Shown here piece by piece: positions 1,861 to 62,024 of a stretch of DNA of 64,000 bases; the first letter of the stretch is position 1; the number at the start of each line of letters is the position of its first letter. Origin of the DNA: Dokdonia sp. 4H-3-7-5 (GTDB lineage: Bacteria > Bacteroidota > Bacteroidia > Flavobacteriales > Flavobacteriaceae); NCBI RefSeq assembly GCF_000212355.1, contig NC_015496.1, positions 1,550,001-1,614,000 of the forward strand, written 5' to 3'. A program made the translations under genes and the position numbers. The notes beneath the pieces were generated by a model. The model saw nothing but the letters and a program-made list of their open reading frames with translations. It made no database searches and was not told the DNA's origin.

Positions 1861-2340
1861 GTGCAACAACCTGTAAAAACATATACTGTAGAAGAAGCAA
1901 AGCGCAAGCTAGAAGCCTACTGCGCTTACCAAGATCGCTGCCATAAAGAAGTGGCTCAAAAGTTACGAGACATGCGTATGATACCAGACGCAATAGATGT
2001 GGTGATAGGTCATTTACTAGAGCACAACTTTTTAAACGAAGAACGTTTTGCAAAAGCCTTTGCGAGGGGTAAATTTCGTCATAAAAGCTGGGGAAGGACA
2101 AGAATCACCCGCGAACTCAAACAACGCGGCATAGGGGCTTATAATCTCAAAACAGCCCTACTTGAGATAGAAGACGAGGAGTATGATACGGTTTTTAATA
2201 CGCTTTCGCGAAAACGTTATGAACAACTCTCCTCAGAAACCGATAAATACCGCAAGCGCAAAAAACTAGCAGACTATCTCACCTACAGAGGTTGGGAAGG
2301 TGATCTTGTGTATGAAAAGGTGAAGGAGCTGGTGCCTTAG
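1861..2340 (+). CDS. recX: Regulatory protein RecX
   Basis: 159-residue RecX, which binds RecA filaments and limits recombinase activity. The typical N-terminal block is present (YTVEEAKRKLEAYCAYQDRCHKEV as a pattern), followed by LL..NFLNEERFAKAFARGKFRHKSWG and further RecX three-helix repeats. An in-frame ATG at 1813 exists but overlaps the rng terminator and the promoter, so I prefer GTG 1861. The stop overlaps the stop of the convergent barrel gene by three bases. A copy of the TTTCGCGAAA palindrome lies inside and encodes LSRK. Confidence 0.9.
   Translation: MQQPVKTYTVEEAKRKLEAYCAYQDRCHKEVAQKLRDMRMIPDAIDVVIGHLLEHNFLNEERFAKAFARGKFRHKSWGRTRITRELKQRGIGAYNLKTALLEIEDEEYDTVFNTLSRKRYEQLSSETDKYRKRKKLADYLTYRGWEGDLVYEKVKELVP
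2201..2216. repeat. TTTCGCGAAA palindrome, copy 1 (in recX)
   Basis: CGCTTTCGCGAAAACG; the right arm has one mismatch beyond the perfect core. Read in the LSRK frame. Confidence 0.9.
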
Positions 2341-5024
2341 AAACGATAGCTCAGTTTAAGAAGTGCATATCTAGGTAAAAGACGATATTCTGTGGTGGAA
2401 GAGCCTATGTCGCTTATAGAAAACTCCCTGAAAATTTCTGTATTAAACAGATTCTTAGCAGAGAGGGAAACGCTCACTTTATTCTTTTTAATGTCATAGG
2501 TGGAAGTGAGATCTGCAAAATAATAAGTGTTATCACTTGATAGATTGCCAAAAAAATAACGCTCCGTCTGCACTTGCATATTGAATTTTTTATTTATAAT
2601 AAAGGAGAGGTCAAGAAAGCTTTCATTGTTTGTAAAGTTGTTTTTAAATCCTGCGCTACGTATGCCGTTTGTTCTCCAAGTAGTACCTATGTGATAATTA
2701 AATATACCAGAAAAACCACTACGCAACTCTAATCCATAACTGTAATTATCTGATGTAACCTCTCTAGTAGGGGAGTCATTAACAACATTCTGGAAATTAA
2801 TAGAGGAGTAAGAGATTTTTGCTTTTAAATTTGATTTTATAACTTTCAAATAATTATCCAAAGAGAGATTTGCACTGAGAAGCTCTTGATCTTTTAGTAA
2901 TATTTTTTCTGATAATGTGAAGTCTTGTGTTATAGTTCTATTAGTTGATAAAAAATCAAAAGACTTTGCGTAGGTTACAAAAGCAGTAGCAAAGAATCGA
3001 TCACTCCAGTTACCCAGCTCATATGATAGCGATAAGCTAGAAGCATCTAATTGATTAAATGTCCCTGTACCTCTAGAAAAACTTCTAAAACCAGAGAGAG
3101 CGTAATCATTATAAACTCCTGTAACACCACTATTTCTTCTTGTTAATGCACCGGATAAAGTAATTTTATTTTTCTCATTAATCTTTAGGGAGGTAGCAAG
3201 TGAAGGGTTTATAAAGAATATAGTTTCTGCGTTACTATTATTTGCTAATGTTTCATTGTCTAGGCTATTTGTAATGAGGTGATTTCCTATAGTTCCTGTA
3301 ATCGACCATTTATTTGAAAATTTGTAAAAATATTTTACAGATAGATACGTATCATTTACAGTATAATTCAGATTATTTTGAAAATCTACAGGAGTAATAA
3401 TTCCATCATTTGTAACAATAGTAAAGTCGCTTTGTAATGATTCCCCTCTTAGGGTGTTTCCAACTTTTATCTCAAAAAGATGACCATTTTCTCTACGATC
3501 TAGCCAGTGAGCCTCAGTGCCAAAATACTCATAATTTAGGCTGCTTTTCTGACTTATATTGTTCTGCGACTCGGTTTCTTCAAAAAGGTTGAAAAAGTTA
3601 TTTTGATTCACTGTAAATCCTTGCGGAGCTTCTTCTTTTATATAGCGCCCAGTAATTAATAGTGCCTTATTATTTTCAAACTTTTTTGAGTATGCTATTT
3701 TTTGATCAAATCTATTATTTGTTTCGTCAAGCAGTTGGAGCGTAGGCGTGTTATTAAAAAGTAAGTTAGATTTTTTATCTGCAGTGACATTGCTATATTT
3801 TGAAACCACTTGTATGCTAGCGGTTTTAGATAAGTCGTAATTGATGTCTAGCTTTCCAAAGAGTGTTACAAAATCACTTTTAAGGCTATATTCCTCAGTG
3901 TTTGTAAAATTTGTACCATTTGCTACAAATGTATCTGTACTGTTTCTGAAGTAAGCAAGCTCATCCCAGTTTGCAAATCCTATAGTTTTAATTTTAAGGT
4001 GCTCTGAGGGATTAAAAATAGCATTGAGAGATAGTAACTCTGCATTATTAAACTTAAATCTAGACTCTTTAAAATAAGGAACCCTATTTGATAAATGTAT
4101 GAGCTTATTGCTTTGCTCGCTGTCGCCTATACTTCCAGGCTCCCCATAGCTAGAAGATCGTATAAGATGACTGATATCACCGGTAGCGTCATATCCTACA
4201 TTATTAAGATTTGTAAAGAAGTAATACTTATTTTTCTTGCCAAAATTTAAGAGATTTGCTCGTGCATCATAACGATCTTGTGACGCCAGACCGTACCCTA
4301 GGTCGACATTGCCAAACCACTGCCGTTTTGCATCTTCATTAAGTGTAAGGTTAATGGCGACTTTATCGCTCTCCTCAATGCCCTTAAGGAGTTTATTATT
4401 AGAATATCGTTTAAGGATTTCTACCTTTTGTATGGGCGAGGCAGGCATGTTTTTGGTGAGTGTTTTGTAACCTTTTTCAAAAAAATCATCATTCTCAATC
4501 ATCACTTTTTCTACCTCTTGATTTCCTATTTTTATAGTACCATCATCTGAGATGTTAATGCCAGGTATTTTACGAAGTAAATCTTCTGCCACAGTCTCTG
4601 TACCGTCTGTAAAGGAGGATGCGTTAAAGACGATGGTGTCTTTTTTAACTCTTATAGGTCTTTTTGAAATGATAACCGTTTCATTAAGAGAGAAAGCCTC
4701 CTCATTTAGTATAGTGTTGAGGGTAACATTAGTCGTTTCATTTCTTATAGTAATTGGTTTTACTATAGTTTCAAACCCTAAGCTAGAAAATACAACTTGA
4801 TAGTCTCCTATTTGTTTTACAGGTAGTTTATACAAACCATTTTTGTTGGTATATGCATACGTGAGTATTGCTGTAGTGTCGCTTTTTTTTAAAATAACAT
4901 TTACAAACTCTAATGGCGTTTTGTCTATAGCTGTAATTGAGCCTTCAATGTAATGTTGAGAGAAAGAGATGTATGGTGTTAGGCTTATTACTATACAGCA
5001 TAGCAGCACTATTATTTTATTCAT
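2337..5024 (-). CDS. TonB-receptor-like outer-membrane beta-barrel protein
   Basis: 895 residues with a signal peptide (about 1-22, ending SFSQ). A carboxypeptidase-regulatory-like beta-sandwich follows (about 24-110: IEGSITAIDKTPLEFVNV and a YKLPV..GDYQVVFSSLGF pattern), then a plug-like domain (about 125-230: DLLRKIPGINISDDGTIKIGNQEVEKVMIENDDFF) and a long barrel ending in an aromatic terminus (LLKLSYRF). This is the flavobacterial outer-membrane barrel type often found beside GLPGLI proteins. The gene overlaps the upstream GLPGLI gene by 8 nt, so they are co-transcribed. The substrate cannot be read from the sequence. Its stop overlaps the convergent recX stop. Confidence 0.85.
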   Translation of the reverse strand: MNKIIVLLCCIVISLTPYISFSQHYIEGSITAIDKTPLEFVNVILKKSDTTAILTYAYTNKNGLYKLPVKQIGDYQVVFSSLGFETIVKPITIRNETTNVTLNTILNEEAFSLNETVIISKRPIRVKKDTIVFNASSFTDGTETVAEDLLRKIPGINISDDGTIKIGNQEVEKVMIENDDFFEKGYKTLTKNMPASPIQKVEILKRYSNNKLLKGIEESDKVAINLTLNEDAKRQWFGNVDLGYGLASQDRYDARANLLNFGKKNKYYFFTNLNNVGYDATGDISHLIRSSSYGEPGSIGDSEQSNKLIHLSNRVPYFKESRFKFNNAELLSLNAIFNPSEHLKIKTIGFANWDELAYFRNSTDTFVANGTNFTNTEEYSLKSDFVTLFGKLDINYDLSKTASIQVVSKYSNVTADKKSNLLFNNTPTLQLLDETNNRFDQKIAYSKKFENNKALLITGRYIKEEAPQGFTVNQNNFFNLFEETESQNNISQKSSLNYEYFGTEAHWLDRRENGHLFEIKVGNTLRGESLQSDFTIVTNDGIITPVDFQNNLNYTVNDTYLSVKYFYKFSNKWSITGTIGNHLITNSLDNETLANNSNAETIFFINPSLATSLKINEKNKITLSGALTRRNSGVTGVYNDYALSGFRSFSRGTGTFNQLDASSLSLSYELGNWSDRFFATAFVTYAKSFDFLSTNRTITQDFTLSEKILLKDQELLSANLSLDNYLKVIKSNLKAKISYSSINFQNVVNDSPTREVTSDNYSYGLELRSGFSGIFNYHIGTTWRTNGIRSAGFKNNFTNNESFLDLSFIINKKFNMQVQTERYFFGNLSSDNTYYFADLTSTYDIKKNKVSVSLSAKNLFNTEIFREFSISDIGSSTTEYRLLPRYALLKLSYRF

Positions 5025-5790
5025 TAAAATATTCTAATTTACCTCCGCAATCTGTACAGTTTTTATTCCTTTTTAAAGGAGCTGTTCCAGCTGGTAGTTT
5101 TGATGAAAGTTCTGCGAAAAATTGATCTGCTAAATATTCTTTACGCTCTAAGTATTCCTTTATAGATAGTGCATTTTTAATTTGAATCTGTTTTATTGAT
5201 TCATCGCAGTTTATAGTTACATTACTTTTTATTTTTGTGGCTATGACATGAAATGAGTATTCCTTGTCATATGCTTCTAGAATAAGCCCTGGTAAATTAT
5301 TTAATTTCCAAGGTCCAGTAGACAAAGGAATATCTGGTGTAAACCAAGCAATGTATTCTCGACCTCTGAAATGTACTTTAGCTTTTTGACAGCTATATTT
5401 CCCTATATTTTTGAACTCGTCAATAATTTCCCAATCATGGTTGAAGGAACTGTCATTCACAAGTAATTCTTCGTCGGTATCGATTTCTTTGAAAAAGAAA
5501 CCTTCCTTTTTCTTTAGATAATAAGCAGGAGAAATATTTTTTCTTCCCAGGACATATGTTTTTGAAGATGAGCCCGCAGTCGAATTCTTTCTTAAAATGG
5601 TTTTTTTCTTTTTTATATCTGTTTCTAGGTAGAGTGAATTAATCCTATTCGTGTAGAGTTTCCATTTGGAATTGACTTTATGGCTAAGTTCAATGGTTTG
5701 AGTATATTCTACAATAACACATGTACCGTTCTGACCATAAGTAAAATTTAGTATTGTAAGACACGCCAGTAAAAAAAAGAAAGTTTTCAT
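5017..5790 (-). CDS. GLPGLI family protein
   Basis: 257-residue exported protein with a signal peptide (MKTFFFLLACLTILNFTYGQ). The family signature appears as GPWKLNNLPGLILEAYD, close to the usual GPWxFxGLPGLI. The C-terminus carries a CxxC pair (CTDCGG). The open frame extends further upstream, but the added residues are not signal-like and run through a terminator-like hairpin, so I place the start at ATG 5790. The function of the family is not established. Overlap with the barrel gene suggests that the two proteins act together at the outer membrane. Confidence 0.85.
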   Translation of the reverse strand: MKTFFFLLACLTILNFTYGQNGTCVIVEYTQTIELSHKVNSKWKLYTNRINSLYLETDIKKKKTILRKNSTAGSSSKTYVLGRKNISPAYYLKKKEGFFFKEIDTDEELLVNDSSFNHDWEIIDEFKNIGKYSCQKAKVHFRGREYIAWFTPDIPLSTGPWKLNNLPGLILEAYDKEYSFHVIATKIKSNVTINCDESIKQIQIKNALSIKEYLERKEYLADQFFAELSSKLPAGTAPLKRNKNCTDCGGKLEYFNE

Positions 5791-6073: not shown

Positions 6074-6501
6074 CAGTTTAATTTTAAATAAATTCTCAAA
6101 ATTTCTTTAAAGTCGGCTTTAAGAATTGCGACTCAAAAAACTAAATAACAGATTTATATTGCGCAATACTAGTCTGTTATTTAATTACTAGCATACTAGA
6201 TGATTAATCATTTGCAATGTAGTAAATTCCTACAGATGCATTTTACGGATTTCCTTTATTTCGGCTAATTGAAGGTAAATTAACTACTCGGTTTTTTTTA
6301 ACCAACTTAGTATACTGTATATCAACAATTTATAAGCATTTAGTAGATGTGTTAATTTTTATAGATTTTCGTGATATTAGTATAAATAATTGATTTTCAT
6401 ATCATTTTATGCGCTTGTAAACTTTAAAAAATAGATAGATTAGAATTTGAGTCCTCTATATTGTAGTCTATAGAGTTTATTATTTTTTGCAGGGATAATC
6501 A

Positions 6502-6514
6502 CTTTCGCGAAAGC
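6502..6514. repeat. TTTCGCGAAA palindrome, copy 2 (intergenic)
   Basis: CTTTCGCGAAAGC in the gap downstream of the PAS gene, next to its terminator. Confidence 0.9.
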
Positions 6515-6527
6515 ATAACAAAACAAA

Positions 6528-8738: not shown

Positions 8739-9656
8739 ATGAAACAGAGTCTATATATAGTAATTGTCATTTTCGCTTTAAGCGTGATTAGTTGCAAGGG
8801 TGAGAAGGAAAGTAATGGCAAATTAAATGTAGTTGCTACCACCTCAATGATTACAGATCTTGTAAAAAATATAGGAGGTGATCTCATTAATCTTGAAGGG
8901 TTGATGGGCGCCGGTGTAGATCCTCACTTATACAAAGCAAGTGCTGGTGATGTTACAAAACTCGCTGGAGCAGATGTGATTTTCTATAATGGGCTACACC
9001 TAGAGGGTAAGCTTGTAGAAGTTTTTGAAAAGATGAATGCCACTCAAGTGACGCAAATTCCCTTAGGAGAGTCGCTGGATAAAAATACGCTCATAGGCTC
9101 AGATTATTTTGCGTCTAACTATGATCCGCATGTGTGGTTTAATATTCAGTATTTTAAGCAATTTGCAACAGAGGTGGTAAGTACGCTTTCGCGAAAAGAT
9201 CCTCAGAACGCAAAAAGCTACGAAGCAAATGCCCAAAATTATCTTGCACAATTAGACGAGTTAGAAGCTGAAATCAAAGCTACAATAGCTACACTCCCAG
9301 CCGAAAAAAGGATTCTTGTTACGGCTCATGATGCCTTTAACTATTTTGGGAAGAGTTATGGTTTTGAAGTAGTAGGATTGCAAGGACTATCTACCGCTAC
9401 CGAAGCAGGAGTTAAGGATGTACAGCGTCTTTCTCAATTTATAATTGACAATAAAGTGAAAGCCATTTTTGTAGAAAGTTCTGTACCTAGAAGAACAATA
9501 GAAGCATTGCAAGCAGCGGTGCAATCTAGAGGACAAGAAGTAGTGATAGGTGGTTCATTATATAGTGATGCGTTAGGGAACGCAGGAAGCGTAGAGGGAA
9601 CATACATAGGCATGTTCAAATATAACGTGACTACTATTGTAGAAACTTTAAAATAG
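8739..9656 (+). CDS. Metal ABC transporter substrate-binding lipoprotein (TroA/ZnuA-like)
   Basis: 305 residues with a lipoprotein signal (lipobox Cys at residue 19, SVISC). It belongs to the cluster A-I metal-binding proteins. The four ligands are visible: His63 (GVDPHLYKAS), His131 (DPHVWF), His197 (VTAHDAF) and Asp277 (YSDALG), the arrangement known from TroA. The His-rich loop of many ZnuA proteins is absent, which fits an Mn/Fe/Zn carrier of TroA/MntC type better than a high-affinity zinc one. It lies 6 nt after the barrel gene. One TTTCGCGAAA copy encodes LSRK. Confidence 0.92.
   Translation: MKQSLYIVIVIFALSVISCKGEKESNGKLNVVATTSMITDLVKNIGGDLINLEGLMGAGVDPHLYKASAGDVTKLAGADVIFYNGLHLEGKLVEVFEKMNATQVTQIPLGESLDKNTLIGSDYFASNYDPHVWFNIQYFKQFATEVVSTLSRKDPQNAKSYEANAQNYLAQLDELEAEIKATIATLPAEKRILVTAHDAFNYFGKSYGFEVVGLQGLSTATEAGVKDVQRLSQFIIDNKVKAIFVESSVPRRTIEALQAAVQSRGQEVVIGGSLYSDALGNAGSVEGTYIGMFKYNVTTIVETLK
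9185..9198. repeat. TTTCGCGAAA palindrome, copy 3 (in binding-protein gene)
   Basis: GCTTTCGCGAAAAG, read in the LSRK frame. Confidence 0.9.
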
Positions 9657-13489: not shown

Positions 13490-13894
13490 ATGAAAACCTA
13501 TTACATCGTTGCGATTATATTTTTTTGTTCCGCTTTCGCGAAAGCGCAAGACTCCACAACAGTAGAGGTTCCTAAGATATATTTGAAGGCTTTTCAAGGA
13601 CAGTCTACTATTATCGAGGGTACATCTCTGCGATTAGTGAACGTTATTGAAGATAGTAGATGTCCGCAGGGAGTAGATTGTATCTGGGCTGGAAATGCTA
13701 AAGTCGTCGTAGAATTAACAAGCGAAAGTGGTAAAAAAACCACTAAAGAAATTATACTCAATGGTGGGCGAGTAGCGCCTATATACTCAGAAGACGGTCT
13801 TGTAATATCAATTAAGGGGCTAGCTCCGTACCCTACATCTTTATCAAAAATTAAAGCAAGTGATTATTATTTACGAGTAGAAGTGAGTAATTAA
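13490..13894 (+). CDS. Exported protein with CPxxVxCIWxG motif, unknown function
   Basis: 134 residues from ATG 13490 with a signal peptide MKTYYIVAIIFFCSAFAKA. The mature domain has the motif RCPQGVDCIWAGNAKV, which I know from uncharacterised periplasmic Bacteroidota proteins, with two Cys that may form a disulfide. The open frame also extends to 13454, but ATG 13490 gives a clean signal peptide. The palindrome copy encodes the AFAKAQ signal-cleavage region. Stop bases TTAA are shared with the convergent gene at 13891. Confidence 0.7.
   Translation: MKTYYIVAIIFFCSAFAKAQDSTTVEVPKIYLKAFQGQSTIIEGTSLRLVNVIEDSRCPQGVDCIWAGNAKVVVELTSESGKKTTKEIILNGGRVAPIYSEDGLVISIKGLAPYPTSLSKIKASDYYLRVEVSN
13531..13546. 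repeat. TTTCGCGAAA palindrome, copy 4 (in exported protein gene)
   Basis: CGCTTTCGCGAAAGCG, AFAKA frame, at the predicted signal-peptidase site. Confidence 0.95.
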
Positions 13895-16472: not shown

Positions 16473-16490
16473 ACGCTTTCGCGAAAGCGT
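16473..16490. repeat. TTTCGCGAAA palindrome, copy 5 (upstream of feoA)
   Basis: Perfect 18-mer ACGCTTTCGCGAAAGCGT between the SCO stop and the feoA promoter, overlapping the expected -33 region. Confidence 0.95.
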
Positions 16491-22300: not shown

Positions 22301-25300
22301 TTGATTTCGATAATGATGGAGTAGACGACAATCTTGATGAAGATGATGATAATGACGGGATTTTAGATGTTGTCGAAGGTTTTAAATTTAATGAAGAGCC
22401 TGGTGTTGGAACATGTACTGGTAATTCATTCAATTTTGTTGGGACAAATGCATCAACTTACATAAATAATCCTGCAACACCTATAGGTACTCAGGGAGCG
22501 CAATATAGATTTTCTAATGTTATTACTTTAGGAGCTCAAACTTTAGATGGAATTGTAACTATAACTAACAAGCCTGCTGGAGTTACAGTATTAAGAATAG
22601 ATGATCCAAATGGCGTAGATGGAGCTGCGCTTCAGCCAGTATTTCAATATGCTTCTAATGTAAGAGGTAATCTTGCCGTAACATTGACGATACGTTTTGT
22701 CGAAAGCGGAACTTTGATTCCATTTAGTGTAGATAGAATAGGTGGTTTTATTCAAGATATCGACAGTAACGGAAACGTTGCTACTAATACCCCTTCAACG
22801 GTAAGAGAATTTTATCGTGTTAATAATATTATAGGATATGCGCTAGAAAACCCTTCGAGAGTATTGGCTCAACAATTTGATAATGGAGTTGTTCAGTTTA
22901 CATCTGATGGAAGTAGAAGCGCGCCTATTGAGCCAGTAGATGTTAATCCAGAATACCGTGTGTTTTTCCAAAAACAAGAAACGGATCAATTCACATTTAC
23001 TATTGGTGCTATAAAAAATACAAATGCTCAAGTAGATCGTTTCTACAGTTTGAGAATGGATGAGTGTGAATTTGCAGATTTTGCAAATCCAGTTATTGTT
23101 TTTATTGATGCTCCTAATACAGATGGAACAGATGGTCCTGACTATCAAGATACAGATGCAGATGATGACGGTTGTAGTGATACTATAGAAGCTGGTTTTG
23201 TTGACGCTTTCGCGAAAGCAGACGAAGATGGACAACTAGGAAACTCATCACCAGTAACTGTAGATCCTACTAATGGTCGAGTAATTTCAGATGCGTCAAA
23301 CGGAGGGGCAGGTTATACAATGCCAAAAGACACTAATGGCGATGGAATTTTTGACTTCCAAGATGCAAATGAAAGTAGTGCTTGTTCATTAGTAAGTATA
23401 GGAGATGTGATTATTACGGAAGGAAATACTGGAACAATAACTGCAGATTTCCAAGTGACACTCACAGAGCCTTCATCTACACCAACGGTAATTACTTATT
23501 CTATTCAGGATGATACGGCAACTACTGCCGATAACGACTATACAGCACCGGCTACATTATCTATTACAATACCTGCAAACACTCTTACAGGAACTATTAG
23601 CATTCCTATCGTGGGAGATACAACTGTAGAGGGTGATGAGACATTTACAGTGACTCTTGAAAGCACTTCAAATGGAATGTTAGATACTGACGATACGGAT
23701 GGTATAGATAATGTAGGTACAGCAACGATTACTAACGATGATGATACAGTTGTAAGTATTAATAATGTAACAGTAATTGAAGGTGATGCTGGAACTGTGA
23801 ACGCAGAGTTTACAGTGTCCTTAACAAACCCTGTAGATACAGTAACTACCGTAACTTTCACGGTAACGGATGATAGTGCTGAGAATGTTGGTAACAGTCT
23901 TGAAGGAGGTAATGATTATGAAGTGCCTACTACATTAACAGTAACTATACCTGCTGGAGAAACAGAAGGAACGGTAACGATCATTGTAAATGGAGATGAG
24001 ACTGTTGAGGCAGATGAAGATTTCTTAGTAACCTTAACGGCTACAGACAATGGAACAATCACCACTACAGTTGGTGAAAATATAGGAACAGGAACAATAA
24101 CGAATGATGATGCTACGGTAGTAAGTATTGGTGATGTAACAGTAACAGAAGGAGCAGATGGAACTACGGTTGTAGCAGAATTCCCTGTAACCTTAAGTGC
24201 AGCAGCAGATACAGATACGGTAGTAACCTTTACCGTTGCAGATGGAACAGGAACGATAGGTGATGCAGATTATGTAGCACCAACAGTACTAACAGTCACA
24301 ATTCCTGCTGGTGAGACTACTGCGGTATTCCCGGTAACAGTAAATGGAGATGATGTTGTAGAATCAGATGAAGATTTTGAAGTAACAATCACAAATACTA
24401 CCAATGGAACGATTGATCCTTTAGCAACCACAGCAACAGGAACAATAACGAATGATGATGCTACGGTAGTAAGTATCGGCGATGTAACGGTAACAGAAGG
24501 AGCAGACGGAACTACGGTTGTAGCAGAATTCCCTGTAACCTTAAGTGCAGCAGCAGATACAGATACGGTAGTAACCTTTACCGTTGCAGATGGAACAGGA
24601 ACGATAGGTGATGCAGATTATGTAGCACCAACAGTACTAACAGTCACAATTCCTGCTGGTGAGACTACTGCGGTATTCCCGGTAACAGTAAATGGTGATG
24701 ATGTTGTAGAATCAGATGAAGATTTTGAAGTAACAATCACAAATACTACCAATGGAACGATTGATCCTTTAGCAACCACAGCAACTGGAACAATAACGAA
24801 TGATGATGCTACGGTAGTAAGTATTGGTGATGTAACAGTAACAGAAGGAGCAGATGGAACTACGGTTGTAGCTGAATTCCCTGTAACCTTAAGTGCAGCA
24901 GCAGATACAGATACGGTAGTAACCTTTACCGTTGCAGATGGAACAGGAACGATAGGTGATGCAGATTATGTAGCACCAACAGTACTAACAGTCACAATCC
25001 CTGCTGGTGAGACTACTGCGGTATTCCCGGTAACAGTAAATGGAGATGATGTTGTAGAATCAGATGAAGATTTTGAAGTAACAATCACAAATACTACCAA
25101 TGGAACGATTGATCCTTTAGCAACCACAGCAACAGGAACAATAACGAATGATGATGCTACGGTAGTAAGTATCGGCGATGTAACAGTAACAGAAGGAGCA
25201 GATGGAACTACGGTTGTAGCTGAATTCCCTGTAACCTTAAGTGCAGCAGCAGATACTGATACGGTAGTAACCTTTACCGTTGCAGATGGAACAGGAACGA

Positions 25301-40673: not shown

Positions 40674-41633
40674 TTATAGGGTTGAGCTTGAGCGCTTTTT
40701 ATTTTTGAACAAGAAGATAGTTCCTGGCAAGAGTGGCAACACGACATTGCATAACCACATAATGAGCACGGTGCTTAACACAATTTCTTCCGGCACAAAA
40801 TACCAGCTAAACACAAAGACAGCAACTCCGCCGCGTACTATTACATCCAGTAGTTGCATCACAGGTATTAAAGAACTTAAAATATACATTGCGGCAATAC
40901 ACGACATGGCAAATACGTAAGGGATATCTGCTCCCAACATCAGTAAAATGATATAAAATTGATGTGCAAATATTGCATAGCGTATCAAGGAATATAAACG
41001 AGTCTTGCGTTTGATATCTTTAGGTATGACCTTCCAAAAGCTCTTGATTTTATGCCATGCATTCCCTTTTAATGACCAGTTAAAACGTCTGAGAATTTTT
41101 GGTAATATTTGATAAAATACCAGTGTCATAAAAATACTTAGACCCCAGAAAAAGATTGCAGTGCCACTTGTAAATAACGCTAGTATACCTAAGCCTATAA
41201 AGCCAACTAAAAGCGTTGCCAGCAGCTGATACATATTTCCTATAAAGTTTAAGAAGAGGATTTTTTTGCGTTGCTCTTTTGGGTAATACAGCGCTTTGGC
41301 ACCATAATCACCCGCTTTTGCAGGAGTTACAAAACCAGCAAGATGAGCTGTAAGGGTTTGTTGTGCGCTTTCGCGAAAGCTTAACTGCCTAATGTAACCT
41401 ACTAAAACTTGCCATTTTTTAAACTCAAAAAGCCAATTGGCACTAGTAAATAATAGTATTACTATAATATAGAAATATAACGATGACGTGTTTATTTCAG
41501 AAAGTTGAAACTGGAGATTAATTAGTCCGCTTCGGTTGAGTTTGCTATAAATAAAATATCCAGCGAGTACTACAATGAGAATCTTAAGAGTCGCCCAGAG
41601 TAATTGCGTAGCTTTGTGAGATAATCTAGGCAT
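40674..41633 (-). CDS. Flippase-like membrane protein (lysylphosphatidylglycerol synthase TM-region family)
   Basis: 319 residues with about eight membrane spans and no soluble catalytic domain. The pattern resembles the UPF0104/MprF flippase part (AHLAGFVTPAKAGDYGAKALYY; SSLIPVMQLLDVIVRGGVAVFVFSWY). Such proteins are thought to move or bind lipids. It is paired with a glycosyltransferase, suggesting modification or export of a glycolipid, and is divergent from ruvC. A palindrome copy encodes SFRES. Confidence 0.78.
   Translation of the reverse strand: MPRLSHKATQLLWATLKILIVVLAGYFIYSKLNRSGLINLQFQLSEINTSSLYFYIIVILLFTSANWLFEFKKWQVLVGYIRQLSFRESAQQTLTAHLAGFVTPAKAGDYGAKALYYPKEQRKKILFLNFIGNMYQLLATLLVGFIGLGILALFTSGTAIFFWGLSIFMTLVFYQILPKILRRFNWSLKGNAWHKIKSFWKVIPKDIKRKTRLYSLIRYAIFAHQFYIILLMLGADIPYVFAMSCIAAMYILSSLIPVMQLLDVIVRGGVAVFVFSWYFVPEEIVLSTVLIMWLCNVVLPLLPGTIFLFKNKKRSSSTL
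41367..41380. repeat. TTTCGCGAAA palindrome, copy 10 (in flippase-like gene)
   Basis: GCTTTCGCGAAAGC; FRES frame on the minus strand. Confidence 0.95.
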
Positions 41634-43493: not shown

Positions 43494-44252
43494 ATGCTTG
43501 CAACAATATCCCATAATAAAGAAACTTTTAAGGTCGATCTTTTAAAACCTATTGATCTCTCGATTCCTCTTACTCCTAAGAAGAATCCGCTGGCATGGTA
43601 TATTGATCCGCCTGCGTTTGAGACAGTCACAGATGGCGATTGGGTAGGCAAAGTGAGTGAAGGCGGAGATGTGAATTTCACCACAATAACGTTTAATCCA
43701 CATTCTCACGGCACACATACAGAGACTGCTGGACACATTACAGAAAAGGTGCACAGTATCAATAAAAACCTGAAGACATTCTTTTTTGTGGCAGAGGTGA
43801 TCACTGTAATTCCAGAACCCTTAGATAACGACGAAGACGATTTTATATTGAGAGATAAGCAGTTCCACAGTATACTTAAAGGCAAATCTCCAGAAGCTTT
43901 AGTCATTCGAACATTGCCTAATGCACGAGAAAAGAAAACAATGAATTGGTCTCACACAAACTGGCCGTTTATAGAAGAAAAAGCAATGGTACGCTTTCGC
44001 GAAAGCGGAATCAAACACCTCCTCATAGATCTTCCAAGTGTAGACAAAGAAAAAGATGGTGGAGCTCTTAAAGCACATCACGCCTTCTGGAATGTAGAAG
44101 AAAATATACGACTAGATGCAACCATCACAGAGATGATTTATGTACCGCACAAAGTGGCAGATGGTAGATATCTTCTCAATTTACAAATTGCTCCTTTTGA
44201 GAACGATGCTACACCAAGTAAGCCTGTGTTGTACAAAATAGAAACTGAATAA
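43494..44252 (+). CDS. Cyclase family protein (kynurenine formamidase-like hydrolase)
   Basis: 252 residues with the metal-binding pattern NPHSHGTHTETAGHI, matching the family HxGTHxDxPxH with a Glu and Ala change, and the N-terminal DLSIPLTP. The family includes arylformamidases and other metal-dependent amidases; the substrate is unknown. ATG 43494 is preferred over the TTG at 43482. It is coupled by TAATG to the ABM-domain gene. A palindrome copy encodes RFRES. Confidence 0.87.
   Translation: MLATISHNKETFKVDLLKPIDLSIPLTPKKNPLAWYIDPPAFETVTDGDWVGKVSEGGDVNFTTITFNPHSHGTHTETAGHITEKVHSINKNLKTFFFVAEVITVIPEPLDNDEDDFILRDKQFHSILKGKSPEALVIRTLPNAREKKTMNWSHTNWPFIEEKAMVRFRESGIKHLLIDLPSVDKEKDGGALKAHHAFWNVEENIRLDATITEMIYVPHKVADGRYLLNLQIAPFENDATPSKPVLYKIETE
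43992..44007. repeat. TTTCGCGAAA palindrome, copy 11 (in cyclase gene)
   Basis: CGCTTTCGCGAAAGCG; FRES frame. Confidence 0.95.
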
Positions 44253-44780: not shown

Positions 44781-47700
44781 ATGCTTAAAAACCATCTGCT
44801 CACCGTCATTACCTTGTTCTTATTTGCCATTTCTTGCGATAAAACTCCAGCACCTACAGATAATTTATTTAAGTACAAGGATTACATCTCGTACACTACA
44901 GAAGGTAGGCAGTCTGTAAAGAACCCTATACGAGTAGAGCTAGCAAAAGCGCTCTCACAGTTTGAGTTGGATCAAGAATTACCGGATAATATACTTAAGA
45001 TAAGCCCTAGTGTTGCAGGTAAATTAAGCATACGTAACCAGCGATTGCTAGAGTTTGTGCCTAGTGAACCACTGGCACCAAATACCGAGTACGAGGTGAC
45101 TGTATTGTTAGATAAACTCTATGATGATCTAGAAAAAGGGATGGATGAATTTCACTTTTCTTTTAAGACCATCACGCCAGATTTTAAAGTGAACCTGCGT
45201 GCATTACAATCATATAGTAAAGAATATAACTATCTAGAAGGACAGATAGAGGGGAGTGATGATATCGCTTTCGCGAAAGCGCAACAACTCATACATGCTA
45301 CACAAAATGGAAACGCATTATCTATCAAATGGTTTAGCCAAGATGCTTATGCTAGATTTCATTCCTTTAGAATAGACAGTATCTCAAGAGCTGAAGAGGA
45401 CTCGAAAATTGAAATATCGTGGAATGGTAAAGCGATAGGAGCAAAAGAAACTAAAGGAGTAAATACCGTAGAAATCCCAGGTCGTAATAACTTTAAAATT
45501 ATAGGGATCGATCAAACTAGAGGAGCAAATGCGTCACTGGCAATTAACTTTTCTGACCCTATACAAGACAAGCAAAACTTTGCCGGACTGGTAACTATCC
45601 AGCAAGGTGGTAATCTTCGTTTTGAGGTAAATGGTAATGTACTTACCGTATATCCAGAGACTAAAATTGTAGGAAATGCACTGGTTGAGGTTTTTGAAGG
45701 TATTAAAAGCACAGATGGATATAGGCTTAAAGAGCAGTTTCAAGAATCAATAAGTTTTGAGCAGGTAAAACCTGCTGTGCGCGCTATAACTAACGGGGTG
45801 ATTTTACCTAATTCAGCAAGTACTCCTTTTTATTTTGAAGCCGTAAGCTTGAGTCACGTAGATGTAAGGATCATCAAGATTTTTGAAAACAATGTGTTAC
45901 AGTTTTTACAAGATGGACAACTCAATGATGTAAGTACCTATAACTTAAAAAGAGTAGGTCGCAGGATAGCAAAGAAAACCATACAAATAGCAAATAAAGA
46001 ATACCTAGATAATGGGCAGTGGAAAGCTCATGGTATTGATCTCTCTACGGTATTTAAGGCAGATCCTGGAGCACTATATCGTATAGAGATAAGTTATAAG
46101 CCAGCATACGCAATCTTTGAATGTACAGATGATACATCTACCGCTGTAGATGATGATAGCTATGATGATTATTACTATGAAGAAGATTATTATAACAACT
46201 CAAACACAGAAGCAGAAAGTGCAGATGAAGACACAAGAGAGGAGCAATACTGGGATAACCGTATTTATAGATGGCGTAAGCAAGTATATAACTGGGAGCA
46301 AGAAGATAATCCTTGCCACCCTGCTTATTATCAAGAAGGGAGGTTTATAAATAGTAATTTATTAGGATCAGATTTAGGAATCATTGTAAAGAAAGGAAAA
46401 GACAATTCTTACCTCTTTGCAGCGGCAGATATTATTACAACTACCCCAGAAGCAAATACAAAAATCACACTTTATAATTATCAAAAGCAAGCAATAGCAA
46501 AGGTGACTACAGATGCGACGGGTATTGCAAATGTAACTCCTGATGGTCATGCAGTTTTTGCCGTAGCAGTAAAGGATAATAATTATGCATATTTAAAACT
46601 AGAAGATGGGCATAGTTTGTCTATGAGTAAGTTTGATATTTCTGGAAACCAACTAGAAAAAGGACTAAAAGGATTTACGTATTTAGAACGCGGTGTGCAT
46701 CGTCCTGGAGATACCATACATCTTACATTTACACTAGACGATAAAGTAAATCCGCTACCTGAGGATCATCCAGTAAAACTGGAAGTTACAGATCCTAGAG
46801 GGAAGTTAATGTACAGAAAAGTACTCGCTGGAAATACAGATGCACAGTCCTTAAATAATTTTTATCATTTCCCTGTACCAACAACACAAACGGCTCCTAC
46901 CGGAAATTATAATGCAACCATCTCTGTAGGTGGAGCAACATTTTATAAGTCTCTTAAAGTAGAAACTATAAAGCCTAACCGGCTCAAGGTTAATTTAGAA
47001 TTTAAGGATGAAATACTAGATGCCAGTGGTAGTATAGAAGGTACTGCAACCGTAAAATGGCTCCACGGAGCACCAGCACGCAATCTCAAAATTGTAAGTG
47101 ACGCTACCATCCGCAGTTCAAATAGCGGTTTCAAGAAGTTTCCTAAATATAATTTTTATGATCCTATCCGTCGTTTTGATGAGGTAGAAATTAATGTGCT
47201 AGACGGTAAACTAGACAATGAGGGAAGTACTAAAATCAATAAGAAACTAGAACTCAGTAAGCGCGCTCCAGGAATGCTTAAAGCTACGTTTGTAACAAAG
47301 GGCTATGAAGGTGGTGGTGATTTTTCACTAGATGTCGTTAGTAAAGATGTGTCGCCTTTTGAGCATTTTGTGGGCTTACGTTCACCAGAAAGTAGAGCCT
47401 ATGGCAGCTACTATACAGATGAGAATACAACATTTGATCTTGCGACAACAGATGCACAAGGAAATCCAGCGCGCAATCGGAAGCTAGAAGTAAAAGTCTT
47501 TAAAATGGAATGGCGCTGGTGGTGGAACCGTAATAACGATAATTACTCAAGCTATGAGACAGGCACTGTGCACACGCCCGTGCAGAACTTCACAGTTACT
47601 TCTGGAGCAAATGGAAAAACGAGTTTTAATGTGAACATTTCAGAAAAAGAAAGCGGTCGTTATCTCATTAGAATTTTAGACCCAGAGAGTGGTCACGCCA

Positions 47701-50359: not shown

Positions 50360-52729
50360 ATGACCAGAACATCCATCATACAGTTTTTAAAATCTCACAA
50401 AGTCAAGCTCATTATATTGGCGGGATTTTTTATGTATTGGTTGTTCTCTTTGCCTTCACCATTGTTTGAAGATCCGCATGCAACAGTGGTGGAGAGTGCA
50501 GAAGGTGAATTGCTGGGTGCGCGTATTGCGGGTGATGGGCAGTGGCGTTTTCCTGCACTAGACAGCGTTCCTGTAAAGTTTGAGAAGTGTATTCTTCTTT
50601 TTGAAGATGAGTATTTTTATACGCATCCTGGGTTTAATCCCGTGGCTATGGGGAAGGCCATCTGGGGAAATATTACAACAGATAAACGTCGTGGTGGCAG
50701 CACCATTACGCAACAAGTAATTAGACTTTCTAGAAAAGGAACAGAACGTTCTTACATGGAAAAGCTAGTCGAACTTATAAAGGCTACAAGGCTCGAAGCT
50801 GGATATGCTAAAGAGGAGATTCTTAATATGTATGCGACCTACGCGCCTTTCGGGGGTAATGTGGTAGGATTAGAGACTGCCGCTTGGCGATATTTTGGAC
50901 TTCCGGCAGATCGTTTGAGCTGGGGGCAGATGGCAGCTTTAGCTGTTTTGCCTAACAATCCTAGTATGGTGCGACCGGGTAAAAATGAGGTAACGCTTTC
51001 GCGAAAGCGTAATGAGCTCCTTAAAAAACTCTGGAAAACTGGGGAAATAGATGAGACAACCTATGAGTTGTCACTCCTTGAAAAACTCCCAGGAAAACCC
51101 TATCCATTACCACAACTAGCACCACATCTAGTAGAGCGAGTAAAGCAAGAATCTGAGGGAAAGCGCATCCAGACCACTATAAAAGCACCACTGCAACGTT
51201 CATTAAATAGACTGGCAAAAGAGCATTACGGACAGTTAAAGCAGAATGAGATTTACAACCTTGCCATGGTTGTGATAGATGTAAATACGAAGGAAGTAGT
51301 GGGTTATGTGGGAAACGCACCTACAGATGCTGCACATCAAAAGGATGTTGATATAGTAACAAAGTCACGAAGCACTGGAAGCACGCTGAAACCTTTTTTA
51401 TATGCCGGAATGCTAGACGAAGGCATGCTCTTGCCTAAAACGCTGGTGGCAGATATTCCCACGAGTATTAATAATTACCAGCCACAAAACTTTAATAATG
51501 AATACAGTGGCGCAGTAGCTGCAGATGTTGCTTTAGCTCGATCGCTTAATGTTCCTGCTGTGCGTTTGCTACGACAATACGGTCTCGATAAATTCTATGG
51601 TAATCTTAAGGAAATGAACCTAGGCGGAATTAATAAACCGGCTTCTCATTATGGACTGGCTATGATACTAGGCGGAGCAGAGAGTAGCCTGTTTGAGTTG
51701 ACAAAAACCTATGCAGGAATGGCAAACACACTGCATACATTTAATAAGTCCAGTAGTAAGTACTCAGCGTCTTCATTTGAGGAGTATACGTTGCGCAAAC
51801 TTTGTGCTACCTGTGATAAGAAAGAGGAGAATTTACACAGTGAGCCAAGTGTCTTTTCTGCAGGAGCAATATATAATACGTTAGAAACTTTACGTACGGT
51901 AAATAGGCCTAATGGGGAGGAGAACTGGCAGTTTTATGAAGATGCGCAGCCCATAGCTTGGAAAACTGGAACAAGTTTTGGTTTCAAAGATGCATGGGCA
52001 GTTGGGGTTACACCTCAGTATGCCATAGGTGTTTGGGTAGGAAATGCAGATGGAGAAGGAAGACCAGGCATCACGGGTATTCAAGCAGCGGCTCCATTGT
52101 TTTTTGATATACTTCGTAGCTTACCCATGAGCGGTAATTGGTTTGACACGCCTTATGATGCTCTTGCCGAAATAAACGTATGCACAAAAAGCGGAATGAA
52201 AGCGAGCGTCTATTGCCCGCTTACAGAAAGTATTCTGGCTCCTGTTGCTGGAGAACATAGTGCTGCCTGTCCATATCATAAACAGGTATATGTAGATTAT
52301 AGTGAGACCTATCGCGTTAATTCTGATTGTTATGAACTAGATAAAATGAAGTCTAAAAATTACTTTGCGTTACCGGCCTCGTTAGCTTTTTATTATTCAG
52401 GAAAGCATCCAGATTACAAAGAGTTACCAACTTACCTCCCCAATTGCGGATTCTCAGGAGAGCAACCCATGGTTTTTATATATCCCAAAAATAATGAAGG
52501 CGTTATTTTACCTAAAAATTTTGATTCGGAAATAAATGATGTGGTGCTTAAAGTAGCTCATCGCAATCCAGAGACGAAGCTCTTCTGGTATTTAGACAAT
52601 AACTTTATAGGCAGTACAGAAGTTTTTCATGAACTAGCCATTGCACCAGAAGTAGGAACCTATGTGCTAACCGTAGTAGATGCTCAGGGTAATGAACTCA
52701 AGAAGCAAATTGAGGTTTCTAGAGGGTAA
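50360..52729 (+). CDS. pbpC: Penicillin-binding protein 1C
   Basis: 789 residues: a membrane anchor (about 15-33), a GT51 glycosyltransferase (about 55-230; EDEYFYTHPGFNP and GGSTITQQVIRL), and a transpeptidase (about 290-600). The transpeptidase has active Ser341 in STLK, the SLN motif in ARSLNVP and KTGTS at about 535. A C-terminal PBP1C domain (about 690-789) ends the protein. It makes peptidoglycan. It lies 2 nt after the macroglobulin gene; the pairing is thought to protect or repair the wall when proteases breach the envelope. A palindrome copy encodes LSRK. Confidence 0.96.
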   Translation: MTRTSIIQFLKSHKVKLIILAGFFMYWLFSLPSPLFEDPHATVVESAEGELLGARIAGDGQWRFPALDSVPVKFEKCILLFEDEYFYTHPGFNPVAMGKAIWGNITTDKRRGGSTITQQVIRLSRKGTERSYMEKLVELIKATRLEAGYAKEEILNMYATYAPFGGNVVGLETAAWRYFGLPADRLSWGQMAALAVLPNNPSMVRPGKNEVTLSRKRNELLKKLWKTGEIDETTYELSLLEKLPGKPYPLPQLAPHLVERVKQESEGKRIQTTIKAPLQRSLNRLAKEHYGQLKQNEIYNLAMVVIDVNTKEVVGYVGNAPTDAAHQKDVDIVTKSRSTGSTLKPFLYAGMLDEGMLLPKTLVADIPTSINNYQPQNFNNEYSGAVAADVALARSLNVPAVRLLRQYGLDKFYGNLKEMNLGGINKPASHYGLAMILGGAESSLFELTKTYAGMANTLHTFNKSSSKYSASSFEEYTLRKLCATCDKKEENLHSEPSVFSAGAIYNTLETLRTVNRPNGEENWQFYEDAQPIAWKTGTSFGFKDAWAVGVTPQYAIGVWVGNADGEGRPGITGIQAAAPLFFDILRSLPMSGNWFDTPYDALAEINVCTKSGMKASVYCPLTESILAPVAGEHSAACPYHKQVYVDYSETYRVNSDCYELDKMKSKNYFALPASLAFYYSGKHPDYKELPTYLPNCGFSGEQPMVFIYPKNNEGVILPKNFDSEINDVVLKVAHRNPETKLFWYLDNNFIGSTEVFHELAIAPEVGTYVLTVVDAQGNELKKQIEVSRG
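50993..51010. repeat. TTTCGCGAAA palindrome, copy 13 (in pbpC)
   Basis: Perfect 18-mer ACGCTTTCGCGAAAGCGT; LSRK frame. Confidence 0.95.
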
Positions 52730-54090: not shown

Positions 54091-54459
54091 TTATTTTTGC
54101 CAGGGAGTTACGGTCGTAGGAGTGTCCTTTTGGTAAAGCACTACATTATTACCATCGGGATCTTGTAGTGTTAAGTCCTTTCCACCCCAGTCTCTGTATA
54201 TGGTGGGGATGAGTACGCTTTCGCGAAAGCGTAATTCAAACACCTCAATACCGTCTGTTTCAAAGTAAACGGTTACGGGTTGTTCTGGAAGTTTGGGATT
54301 ATAATAAGCTGTAAAAATGACTTCGTGCTCCTTGTTTTCAAAATGTGCGTGATGCTGAGGCTCGTGCTCAATAAGTCCCATACCAATGCCTGTATAAAAC
54401 GCAATCGCCGCTTTAAGGTCTTGGGAGGGGACGGTGATGTGGTTAAACGTAGTAGGCAC
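54091..54459 (-). CDS. VOC family (glyoxalase-fold) protein (2)
   Basis: 122 residues from a GTG start at 54459. The VOC pattern is ITVPSQDLKAAIAFYTGIGM and LQDPDGNNVVLYQ. The start overlaps the end of the upstream NAD(P)-binding gene by 17 nt, so the genes are coupled. A tandem duplication with the neighbouring VOC gene is likely. A perfect 18-bp palindrome copy encodes RFRES. Confidence 0.85.
   Translation of the reverse strand: MPTTFNHITVPSQDLKAAIAFYTGIGMGLIEHEPQHHAHFENKEHEVIFTAYYNPKLPEQPVTVYFETDGIEVFELRFRESVLIPTIYRDWGGKDLTLQDPDGNNVVLYQKDTPTTVTPWQK
54215..54232. repeat. TTTCGCGAAA palindrome, copy 14 (in VOC gene 2)
   Basis: Perfect 18-mer; FRES frame on the minus strand. The VOC paralogue at 53708 has no palindrome at the matching place. 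Confidence 0.95.
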
Positions 54460-59442: not shown

Positions 59443-61530
59443 TTATTCTTTGATTTTTACAAATTTGAAAGACTGTTTCTCTTTGTTAGAACCTCTTGAA
59501 ATGAGCTGCATAGTATACAGAGGGTTTTCAAATAATTCAATCACCTCATCATCTGAGAGTAACTTGTCATTATAGTAATAAAGTGCTTTTTGTTGAAGTA
59601 GATCCTTATGGATAATCATTTTATTATGTAAGGTAGAAGTCTCCGTGGTAATATTAGGTTCCTTAGATTTAAGTATCGCTTCTTCTTTTGAGATTTCTTT
59701 TCCTTCAAATTCAAAAGTACCGCCATTTAGGGCGTGCTCTTCAACGTTTTTTGATAAAGAACCATCTTCATCATAACTTGCTTTAACTTCAAAATGATTG
59801 CTTTTTTGGTTTATTGGATGAGGCTGATTTTTATCTTTCTGTTCATCATTCATATTATCATAAATAATTTGAATTGTTTTTAAATCAGCAGCAGGAATTT
59901 GTTCAACAGTTTTGTTTTTATATTTTGATGTGAGGCGATTGTAAATTTCTAATTGGCGTCCATCAACTCCTGCATTTTCAGGAAGCTTATCTATAATAGT
60001 TCCATTCTTGTTATTATTCATTACAGCTAGTGCCTTTTGACCCGTTTCAGTTACAGTTATTGTAAGCGTATCTCCTTTTTTAATTGCTGGTTTTTGTGGC
60101 ACATTATTATCCTTGCTTCCTATAAAAGTTTTGGGTGGGTTGCTGTATGGATACGGTGTTTTAATTTCTGTTACACCACCTTTTGCAAGGCGTACAGCTT
60201 CTTCATAGGTTACTTCTTTACCATCATAGATAAAAAGGCTACCTAGTTTATGCATTTTGAGTAAATGTTCTTCTGGAGATGGCGGTGGTGGTGGCGGAGG
60301 AAGCTCTCCTCTTGGTGCTGGTGGAGCGGGAGGTGGCGGAGGAATAAGGCGCAGACTGTTATTTGCCTTATACAATTGCGTTTGTCTAAAAACAGCTTCG
60401 GCTTTATTTATAAACTCTTTTGAGTTGTCCTTAAAAATCATAGACCTCACCGGCTGTGCAAACTCTTCTTTTGTCCACTCTTGTGTGATATTATCTATGC
60501 TTTCGCGAAAGCTGTCAAGCGGACTATATTGTCCATTTACATAGATGCTGTCATTTTTCACTTCTATAACTAGTGCGTTTTTACCATTACGTGTAGCTCC
60601 TTCTACAAACTGTGTGGCGTAGGTTGAGGTTTGAGGTGCCTTTTGCTCTTTAGGTTTTTCTTGAGCAATGATTCCTTGATTAAAGAGTAGTAGGCAAATT
60701 GTAACTACTGGAATGAGTAGTAATGCGCGCAGCACTACTTTTTTACGACTAAATGATTGTGATAACATAACGATTCGTTTTTTGGTTAATGAATAATTAA
60801 AAGGACTCTCGAGCGCAGTGTGATGAGTACTGCTTGCATAACTTAAGAGTATGTTTTGATATATAGCAATATTACTTTCATCTACTATAACACATTGATC
60901 TGCTAGAAATTCGTGGTTTAATTTTATAGAACCTTTATAAAGCCACACAAGCGGATTAAACCAGAAAATGACCTCTATAAACTCTATGGCAATAATATCT
61001 AGGGAGTGCTTTTGGCGTACGTGAGTTGCCTCGTGAGCAAGTACCTCTGGAGCTATTTCCTTTTGTGTGTATGAATGTTTGTTTACAAAAATCCACTTTA
61101 GGAAAGAGTGCGGCACCATAACTTGCTCTAGTAAAGCAAGCGTGAAGTGTGATGATGGGTGCAGCTCTGCCTGATGTATCTTTCGCTTTAAGCGCACAAG
61201 ATTTACAATAAAACGAAAGCCAAAAATGAATACACCTAGAAGATATATACTCCAGATAACGGTGTTTGTATAATCTACATCAGTAACTTGAGCGGCCTGA
61301 CTTGGATTGGAAACCGTCTCAACATATTCTTGAAATATGGGAGTAATCTGTGGTGCTTCTGCTGCTTGGTATGTAAAGGTGATAAGTGGTATGGTAAATG
61401 AAAATACAAGACTTGCCAGGAGGTAAAATCTTTTAAAGTGGTGCATCGCTTTTCCTTCCAGCGCTAGCTTATAAAAGCCAAATAAGATGCCTAAACATAA
61501 AGCGCTTTTTAAGAGATAGATGAGTATCAT
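59443..61530 (-). CDS. M56 (BlaR1-like) metallopeptidase with Pro-rich linker and internal repeats
   Basis: 695 residues. Membrane spans and the M56 protease form the N-terminus, with HEATH at about 166-170 and IIAIEFIEVIFWFNPLVW..HEFLADQ. After the last span (about 268-285) comes a long periplasmic part with a polyproline run (about 390-415). Three short related units follow, near residues 433, 605 and 655 (IYDGKEVTYEEAV, FEGKEISKEEAI, YNDKLLSDDEVI). There is no TonB domain, unlike the other M56 protein here. Its ATG overlaps the BlaI stop (ATGA type). It is probably the sensor that relieves the adjacent repressor; the ligand is unknown. Confidence 0.88.
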   Translation of the reverse strand: MILIYLLKSALCLGILFGFYKLALEGKAMHHFKRFYLLASLVFSFTIPLITFTYQAAEAPQITPIFQEYVETVSNPSQAAQVTDVDYTNTVIWSIYLLGVFIFGFRFIVNLVRLKRKIHQAELHPSSHFTLALLEQVMVPHSFLKWIFVNKHSYTQKEIAPEVLAHEATHVRQKHSLDIIAIEFIEVIFWFNPLVWLYKGSIKLNHEFLADQCVIVDESNIAIYQNILLSYASSTHHTALESPFNYSLTKKRIVMLSQSFSRKKVVLRALLLIPVVTICLLLFNQGIIAQEKPKEQKAPQTSTYATQFVEGATRNGKNALVIEVKNDSIYVNGQYSPLDSFRESIDNITQEWTKEEFAQPVRSMIFKDNSKEFINKAEAVFRQTQLYKANNSLRLIPPPPPAPPAPRGELPPPPPPPSPEEHLLKMHKLGSLFIYDGKEVTYEEAVRLAKGGVTEIKTPYPYSNPPKTFIGSKDNNVPQKPAIKKGDTLTITVTETGQKALAVMNNNKNGTIIDKLPENAGVDGRQLEIYNRLTSKYKNKTVEQIPAADLKTIQIIYDNMNDEQKDKNQPHPINQKSNHFEVKASYDEDGSLSKNVEEHALNGGTFEFEGKEISKEEAILKSKEPNITTETSTLHNKMIIHKDLLQQKALYYYNDKLLSDDEVIELFENPLYTMQLISRGSNKEKQSFKFVKIKE
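60499..60512. repeat. TTTCGCGAAA palindrome, copy 15 (in M56 gene 2)
   Basis: GCTTTCGCGAAAGC; FRES frame on the minus strand (DSFRESID). Confidence 0.95.
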
Positions 61531-61964: not shown

Positions 61965-62006
61965 GTTAAAATAACTTAAGATAAGTGTCTGTAATAGTGT
62001 CTTTTT

Positions 62007-62024
62007 ACGCTTTCGCGAAAGCGT
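62007..62024. repeat. TTTCGCGAAA palindrome, copy 16 (intergenic)
   Basis: Perfect 18-mer upstream of the BlaI operator region. Confidence 0.95.

Follow-up and report, generated by a model that had tools for sequence, protein, structure and literature searches.

A highly iterated palindrome with C-poor arms in Dokdonia sp. 4H-3-7-5 and scattered relatives, a possible self-DNA tag

The window analysed in this study is a stretch of 64,000 nucleotides of the chromosome of Dokdonia sp. 4H-3-7-5 (contig NC_015496.1, positions 1,550,001 to 1,614,000; G+C content 38.2%). The 10-bp palindrome TTTCGCGAAA occurs in it in 16 exact copies, four of which are intergenic and twelve genic (Table 1), at an expectation of 0.07 copies for independent bases and of 0.04–0.06 for Markov models of orders 1–3. 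Five of the 16 copies are enclosed by the 18-mer ACGCTTTCGCGAAAGCGT, and exactly five variants with one mismatch to TTTCGCGAAA are present (at 16715, 18671, 48568, 55362 and 58063). An earlier sequence-only reading of the window had reported the same 16 copies (with starts 1–4 bases lower, at the start of a longer unit), the same five full 18-mers and five one-mismatch variants, of which one was placed at 55368 instead of 55362; its estimates of about 38% G+C and fewer than 0.1 expected copies agree with the computed values.

The genic copies are distributed evenly over the three reading frames (LSRK, AFAKA and FRES, four copies each), as had been claimed for the window. Ten of the twelve genes bearing a site, all except the 4330-aa and 1858-aa open reading frames (ORFs), were scanned against Pfam. 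Nine of them obtained an identity, in agreement with the gene contexts proposed before, and the tenth, the ORF at 13454, is without a Pfam match.

Table 1. Copies of the palindrome in the 64-kb window, with the positions of the 18-bp unit, the start of the core and the gene context
Site	Unit	Core start	Strand	Context
1	2200..2217	2204	.	in recX (Pfam RecX), LSRK frame
2	6499..6516	6503	.	intergenic
3	9183..9200	9187	.	in ZnuA-type binding protein gene (Pfam), LSRK
4	13530..13547	13534	.	in small ORF without Pfam match, AFAKA
5	16473..16490	16477	.	full 18-mer; intergenic
6	23204..23221	23208	.	in 4330-aa ORF, AFAKA
7	35417..35434	35421	.	full 18-mer; intergenic
8	36604..36621	36608	.	in M56 peptidase/TonB gene (Pfam), LSRK
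9	39743..39760	39747	.	in glycosyltransferase 2 gene (Pfam), AFAKA
10	41365..41382	41369	.	in LPG-synthase-like membrane protein gene (Pfam), FRES
11	43991..44008	43995	.	in cyclase gene (Pfam), FRES
12	45265..45282	45269	.	in 1858-aa ORF, AFAKA
13	50993..51010	50997	.	full 18-mer; in penicillin-binding protein 1C-like gene (Pfam), LSRK
14	54215..54232	54219	.	full 18-mer; in glyoxalase-fold gene (Pfam), FRES
15	60497..60514	60501	.	in second M56 peptidase gene (Pfam), FRES
16	62007..62024	62011	.	full 18-mer; intergenic

The complete genome (G000; one contig of 3,389,993 bases) contains 1,012 copies of TTTCGCGAAA, in comparison to 10 copies of the reversed control pattern. This corresponds to 299 copies per Mb or about one per 3.3 kb. 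In a sample of 464 kb, which also served for the statistics of arms, frames and gene context in G000 (ORFs called greedily), 149 copies were counted, with Markov expectations of 0.43–0.46 (orders 1–3), 2.7 (order 4) and 37 (order 5, a value inflated by the motif itself). The comparison with a Markov background, which had been suggested as a check, thus places the palindrome far above expectation.

Within the family, 299 genomes from 236 genera were sampled, and five of them contained hundreds of copies. These five belong to three genera, namely g1 (G000 with 1,012 and the other g1 genome, G206, with 1,107 copies), g11 (G010, 595; G242, 700) and g191 (G190, 559). The next highest counts were 34, 27, 26, 25 and 23, and many genomes remained below the control. 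Scans with the 14-mer GCTTTCGCGAAAGC in overlapping draws from the order and from the phylum, 395 genomes each, detected no further genus with hundreds of copies. Abundance of the palindrome is limited to scattered genera. When named genomes were searched with a thinned pattern, at least 116 stretches matched, and the 80 listed came from Dokdonia (21), Nonlabens (35), 'Flavobacteria bacterium BBFL7' (4), which we take to be Nonlabens and counted as such, and others (20). The Dokdonia loci shared 77.4% DNA identity with G000 over 14.5 kb, and the Nonlabens loci 81.2% with G010 over 11.7 kb and 74.6% with G000 over 14.0 kb. On this modest evidence, g1 appears to be Dokdonia and g11 Nonlabens. 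According to SecA similarity, G190 represents the nearest other genus to G000 (82%), narrowly before the motif-poor G169. G010 and G242 are not among the SecA matches listed (down to 1890.8 bits, 77%), and many motif-poor genera look closer to G000; a long Nonlabens branch could be the cause of this apparent distance.

Other palindrome dialects were not detected in samples of up to 20 kb from 34 genomes (40 were sampled and six with less than 8 kb dropped), where over-represented palindromes appeared in G032 only and originated from a tandem repeat; 20-kb controls from G000, G010 and G190 all revealed the motif. The repeat in G032 (C1 1797–3222, L379) has a unit of 273 bp that holds GCGATCGC, and it mimics the signal of the highly iterated palindrome HIP1 in short samples. 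No description of the present palindrome was found in a literature search (limited open-access library).

The copies are spaced more evenly than chance in three data sets. Among the first 100 sites of G000, the gaps showed a coefficient of variation (CV) of 0.63, and four of them were shorter than 1 kb (24 expected); such short gaps numbered six in 360 kb (27.7 expected) and three in G206 (29.4 expected). Twenty spread samples of 20 kb contained 5–10 copies each (mean 6.65, variance 2.45). Density and spacing, for which a plot versus origin and terminus had been proposed, are therefore even and uniform over the 20 samples, with origin and terminus not mapped. Of the five longest gaps between the first 100 sites, three are occupied by a giant repeat adhesin, by group II introns and by a NACHT/DUF5655 region, respectively.

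The 149 copies of the 464-kb sample give the consensus TACGCTTTCGCGAAAGCGTA, with the three shoulder bases beside the core at 86–89%, 86–89% and 75–77%. On the 5' side beyond the 18-mer, the frequency of C is 0.077, 0.084, 0.079 and 0.121 in the bins 1–5, 6–10, 11–15 and 16–20, increases to 0.149 (21–30) and 0.170 (31–40), and is 0.19 more than 200 bases away. By symmetry, G is depleted 3' of the element, where the sequence is A/C-rich. CGCG sites elsewhere (388) and TTTGCAAA sites (46) were without depletion of C, and 29 TTCGAA sites were noisy. The C-poor arms were found again in G206 and G010. Near the sites of G000 and G206, upstream C at third codon positions falls from 0.157 to 0.046, and at 108 intergenic sites upstream C amounts to 0.075 (intergenic background 0.159). 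These observations show that TTTCGCGAAA is the centre of a dyad-symmetric element, which consists of TACGCTTTCGCGAAAGCGTA and arms of about 25 bp that nearly exclude C 5' of the centre on each strand. The whole element is symmetric and comprises about 60–70 bp. A period-3 pattern in the arms, seen in the small G010 sample, is partly due to the coding frame, and intergenic A and T show some of it; it is not claimed here as a property of the element.

Complementary pairing of the two halves at ±1, ±2 and ±3 was not in excess over shuffles (Dokdonia 282/288.7, 280/285.9 and 224/222.3). Pairing of −4 with +4 was above chance in Nonlabens (54 vs. 34.7 expected) and Dokdonia (152 vs. 135.8), and a nominal excess occurred at ±12 in Dokdonia. 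Since the halves do not covary at the shoulders, a two-sided protein site is indicated, and not a hairpin.

Beyond the window, the even use of reading frames does not hold. The 85 genic copies in the 464 kb of G000 are distributed 45:23:17 with a preference for the AFAKA frame, and the order is the same in G206 (40:21:12), G010 (17:9:5) and G190 (14:8:5). The remaining 64 of the 149 copies lie between genes, in about 9% of the sample. Among 358 sites of G000 and G206, 209 were genic, 146 intergenic and three at edges; the intergenic density per kb was 1.64 in tandem, 1.33 in divergent and 1.25 in convergent gaps. A terminator or promoter element was rejected, as no intergenic class is preferred and the 3' side is A/C-rich. 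The conclusion formerly drawn from frame use, that pressure acts on the DNA and not on the protein, still stands, because all frames are used, copies are enriched between genes and most private genic sites are plain amino-acid substitutions, as described below.

Gain and loss of copies, for which a comparison of orthologous genes had been proposed, were seen between G000 and G206. In 22 alignments (54.6 kb, 67–81% identity), 10 sites were shared, six were private to G000 and seven to G206. By simple arithmetic, a 10-mer survives by chance at 75% identity in about 6% of cases, so that sharing is high while turnover is real. Nine of the 13 private sites are genic in both genomes; at the protein level, seven of these nine are gap-free substitutions and two are not (the other four are not genic in both). 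At the DNA level, nine of the 13 have a gap within 9 bases, which might indicate an insertion element; this candidate was rejected in view of the seven gap-free protein alignments. Sites are thus mostly gained and lost by substitution, as shown for seven of the nine testable private sites. The arms of the 13 private sites contain C at 0.072 with the site and at 0.162 in the site-less ortholog. The arm differences, which are not polarised, comprise 45 of C to other, five of other to C and 38 of A or T to G. A mutational C-to-T footprint on exposed strands was set aside, since A/T-to-G and C-to-G/A differences also accompany the sites. One-mismatch forms, counted by subtraction of the exact counts, were rare in some of the genomes (exact to one-mismatch 1012:236 in G000, 1107:373 in G206, 595:113 in G010, 700:81 in G242 and 559:421 in G190; one-mismatch reversed controls 313, 306, 217, 234 and 274, respectively).

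The palindrome is also present in viral DNA. A viral scan returned at least 120 stretches, among which the 74 with a G+C content of 48% or more are probably chance matches; 22 loci of lower G+C content in 18 records contain one to eight copies each. Loci and viral records that were retrieved for the presence of a site give upwardly biased densities, which were not used as evidence of level. Among 20 proteins of seven viral loci, the PHROGs matches comprised a transposase and a DNA transposition protein, which mark two contigs as Mu-like, as well as integrase, baseplate hub, portal, major head, tape measure, terminase and replicative helicase; several proteins were without a match or without known function. 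L134, L129 (G661), L165 (G666) and L143 (G663) are temperate phage contigs with several palindromes, two of them Mu-like and one with an integrase, and one inter-site spacing of 4480 bp is common to five viral records (G663, G668, G670, G671 and G674). In two virulent Nonlabens phages (35.7 kb each), no copy was found in 71 kb; as close relatives, they represent nearly one observation.

In the motif-poor genome G076, 15 of 26 copies are located in C3 32,001–92,000, and none in the preceding 20 kb. Of this stretch, 15 kb are 89–90% identical to the Nonlabens-type G010, and ten scanned proteins (L346–L348, about 32–92 kb) include CusA/AcrB and P-type ATPase metal efflux proteins, a Fic protein and the product of an MmeI-like restriction-modification gene. 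The stretch, at least 60 kb in length, was probably acquired horizontally. The palindrome can in this way flag DNA moved between genera, such as this metal-efflux stretch with its 15 copies.

The exactness and symmetry of the element, its unpaired halves and its footprint point to a dimeric DNA-binding protein. The element would then be the recognition site of a putative dimeric (two-fold symmetric) protein that contacts about 60–70 bp. The copies are evenly spaced, indifferent to transcription and uniform in density, which suggests a task for which the cell requires a site every few kb in its own DNA. As uptake signals are known systems of such a layout, a tag for uptake or recombination was ranked first and nucleoid organisation second. 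We tentatively favour, with less than even confidence, a self-DNA tag whose action would resemble that of the uptake signal sequences (USS) of Haemophilus and the DNA uptake sequences (DUS) of Neisseria. DNA bearing a site would be taken up preferentially or handed to recombination, and conversion from tagged relatives would continually generate and restore exact copies. Even spacing would result because a further copy on one fragment would add nothing, and copies with one altered base would not be read, so that no halo would accumulate. Lineages with a matching putative receptor would share the tag and others would not.

The palindrome resembles USS and DUS in its number of exact copies (about a thousand), its relatively even spacing, its enrichment outside genes, its composition of a core and a flanking part and its limitation to certain genera. 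It differs from them in being a palindrome, in its arms, which nearly exclude C over about 25 bp on both sides, and in one-mismatch forms that are not enriched in three of five genomes. According to PMC7811141, uptake sequences are relatively evenly distributed, which molecular drive alone can produce, and are less frequent in segments of recent acquisition and within coding sequence; flanking AT-tracts are described in this source and in PMC1939737. The sequence-only reading had been unable to see the arms depleted of C, the evenness of the spacing, the lack of a one-mismatch halo or the patchy distribution. To our knowledge, no uptake sequence is known in Bacteroidota. It is conceivable, though we would not count on it, that the palindrome and its C-excluding arms form a tag that a putative dimeric protein reads in genera that are maybe not sisters, and that marks chromosome, temperate phages and exchanged islands as own; such a genome-wide system of self-DNA recognition would be the first to be described in Bacteroidota.

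Several observations weigh against the self-DNA tag. For Riemerella, a related bacterium with a preference for its own DNA, the top three k-mers listed contain no such palindrome. As far as PMC1939737 describes them, known uptake sequences are not palindromes and possess a one-mismatch halo (observed/expected about 11 in Actinobacillus). In our genomes, one-mismatch forms were below the control in G000, G010 and G242, little above it in G206 and clearly above it only in G190, where the arms are also weaker. Temperate, partly Mu-like phage contigs bear sites, which suits an intracellular function as well or better. Finally, the other two of the five longest gaps contain ordinary genes among those scanned, and the five-gap pattern is anecdotal.

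Alternatively, the sites may serve as anchors, about 3 kb apart, for an abundant nucleoid or segregation protein, with the arms and the spacing as its footprint and bridging. This explanation is rather unlikely, yet the strongest competitor: it agrees with the evenly spaced copies and their uniform density in the samples taken around the chromosome, with the symmetric footprint of about 60–70 bp and with sites on temperate phage contigs and none on the two virulent Nonlabens phages. The sites of MatP, Noc and ParB (parS) are likewise two-fold symmetric sites of chromosome-binding proteins; they are far fewer and regionally biased, whereas about a thousand copies occur here, and no such bias was seen in the 20 samples of 20 kb (5–10 each; origin and terminus not mapped). 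Moreover, no candidate protein was found, and the motif-poor genera of the family must organise similar chromosomes without the palindrome. A two-way Chi is improbable; in this reading, AddAB would recognise the palindrome from either side as a recombination hotspot, and the T/G-rich 5' arms would help RecA. A PF12705 nuclease of about 900 aa, taken as AddB, is present in 17 of 17 genomes, and a second PF12705 protein, taken as AddA, lies about 5 kb off in G000, G206 and G190 (below the cut-off); no second subunit was found for G010, G242 and G042. The copy number is close to that of Chi in Escherichia coli (1,008; PMC1939737), and the C-poor, T/G-rich arms match the preference of RecA for TG-rich DNA (PMC3763553), a possible link between both systems. 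Unlike the palindrome, E. coli Chi is directional and randomly spaced: in 250 kb with 48 copies, its CV was 1.21, 8 of 43 gaps were shorter than 1 kb (7.6 expected), and 5' C depletion was absent. We know of no Chi sequence that is a palindrome. The AddB tree was uninformative, as it showed no trace of an exchange that involves Nonlabens and Dokdonia, while one clade is not rejected (p 0.10). The AddB proteins of the two g1 genomes are only 51% identical in spite of an identical motif. Judging from titles cited in PMC3763553, codon usage has been proposed as the reason for the GT islands around E. coli Chi.

The sequence-only reading had named HIP1 as precedent and methylation as a possible role; the precedent is fair in appearance, while methylation as the driver is disfavoured. 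Following the model of Elhai for HIP1, an orphan DNA methyltransferase and methyl-directed repair would create and keep the palindrome. Like HIP1 and alternate HIPs, it is a highly iterated GC-centred palindrome in genes and gaps, of high frequency and sporadic between genera (PMC4390886). In contrast, PF00145 is absent in G000, G242 and G190, PF01555 has no match above the cut-off in G000, G206 and G242, and PF02086 is absent in G000, G010, G242 and G190. G000 and G242 are thus without a match above the cut-off for all three families (Type I, Eco57I-type, PF02384, PF07669 and others were not searched). A methylase link was rejected because none of the three families searched is common to the motif-rich genomes, and the lack of matches in G000 makes a HIP1-type account fit poorly. 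A methylase site is shorter than the arms of about 25 bp, and their low C content may be a further difference from HIP1. In addition, 299 copies per Mb compare with 500–2500 for HIPs (PMC4390886), so that the palindrome is about 2 to 8 times rarer, and one-mismatch forms are not enriched in G000, while those of HIP1 are (PMC1939737). Taken together, this origin is very unlikely. Still less credible is a mobile or structural repeat, i.e. a REP-like hairpin or an inserted palindrome with target preference. The perfect palindrome is able to fold (−6 kcal/mol for the 18-mer alone), and gaps occur within 9 bases of nine of the 13 private sites in the DNA and near two of the nine genic sites in the protein alignments; against this stand the seven gap-free substitutions, the missing complementary excess at ±1 to ±3 (with some at ±4 and a nominal one at ±12 in Dokdonia), a 58-nt context that folds no better than shuffles, and the 85 of 149 genic copies, unlike extragenic REP. 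A hairpin or cruciform was rejected on the pairing and the one context fold, with the excess at ±4 standing aside.

The purpose of highly iterated palindromes is still debated for HIP1, and here a case without the methylases tested is available. Its footprint (arms, spacing and missing halo) can be measured from sequence alone, in genera with cultured strains.

Some further features were observed. The AddB-like proteins of the two g1 genomes (L446, L438) show their 51% identity at a SecA identity of 86%, a lower value than in six related motif-poor genomes (68–77% at 87–93%). The 4330-aa ORF of the window (19372–32364) contains internal tandem repeats and only one palindrome site in 13 kb. GGAACAATAACG occurs in it 15 times between 24091 and 28645 (spacing mostly 348 bp), followed by five copies of TGGTGCACCA between 28989 and 30297, which are 327 bp apart. 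L475 (G000 138,501–149,500) includes a palindrome-free stretch of 9.6 kb with a maturase gene and a pair of similar group II intron matches, which lie 3.6 kb from each other. L477 contains an Rfam match to the Flavo-1 RNA at 5405–5485.

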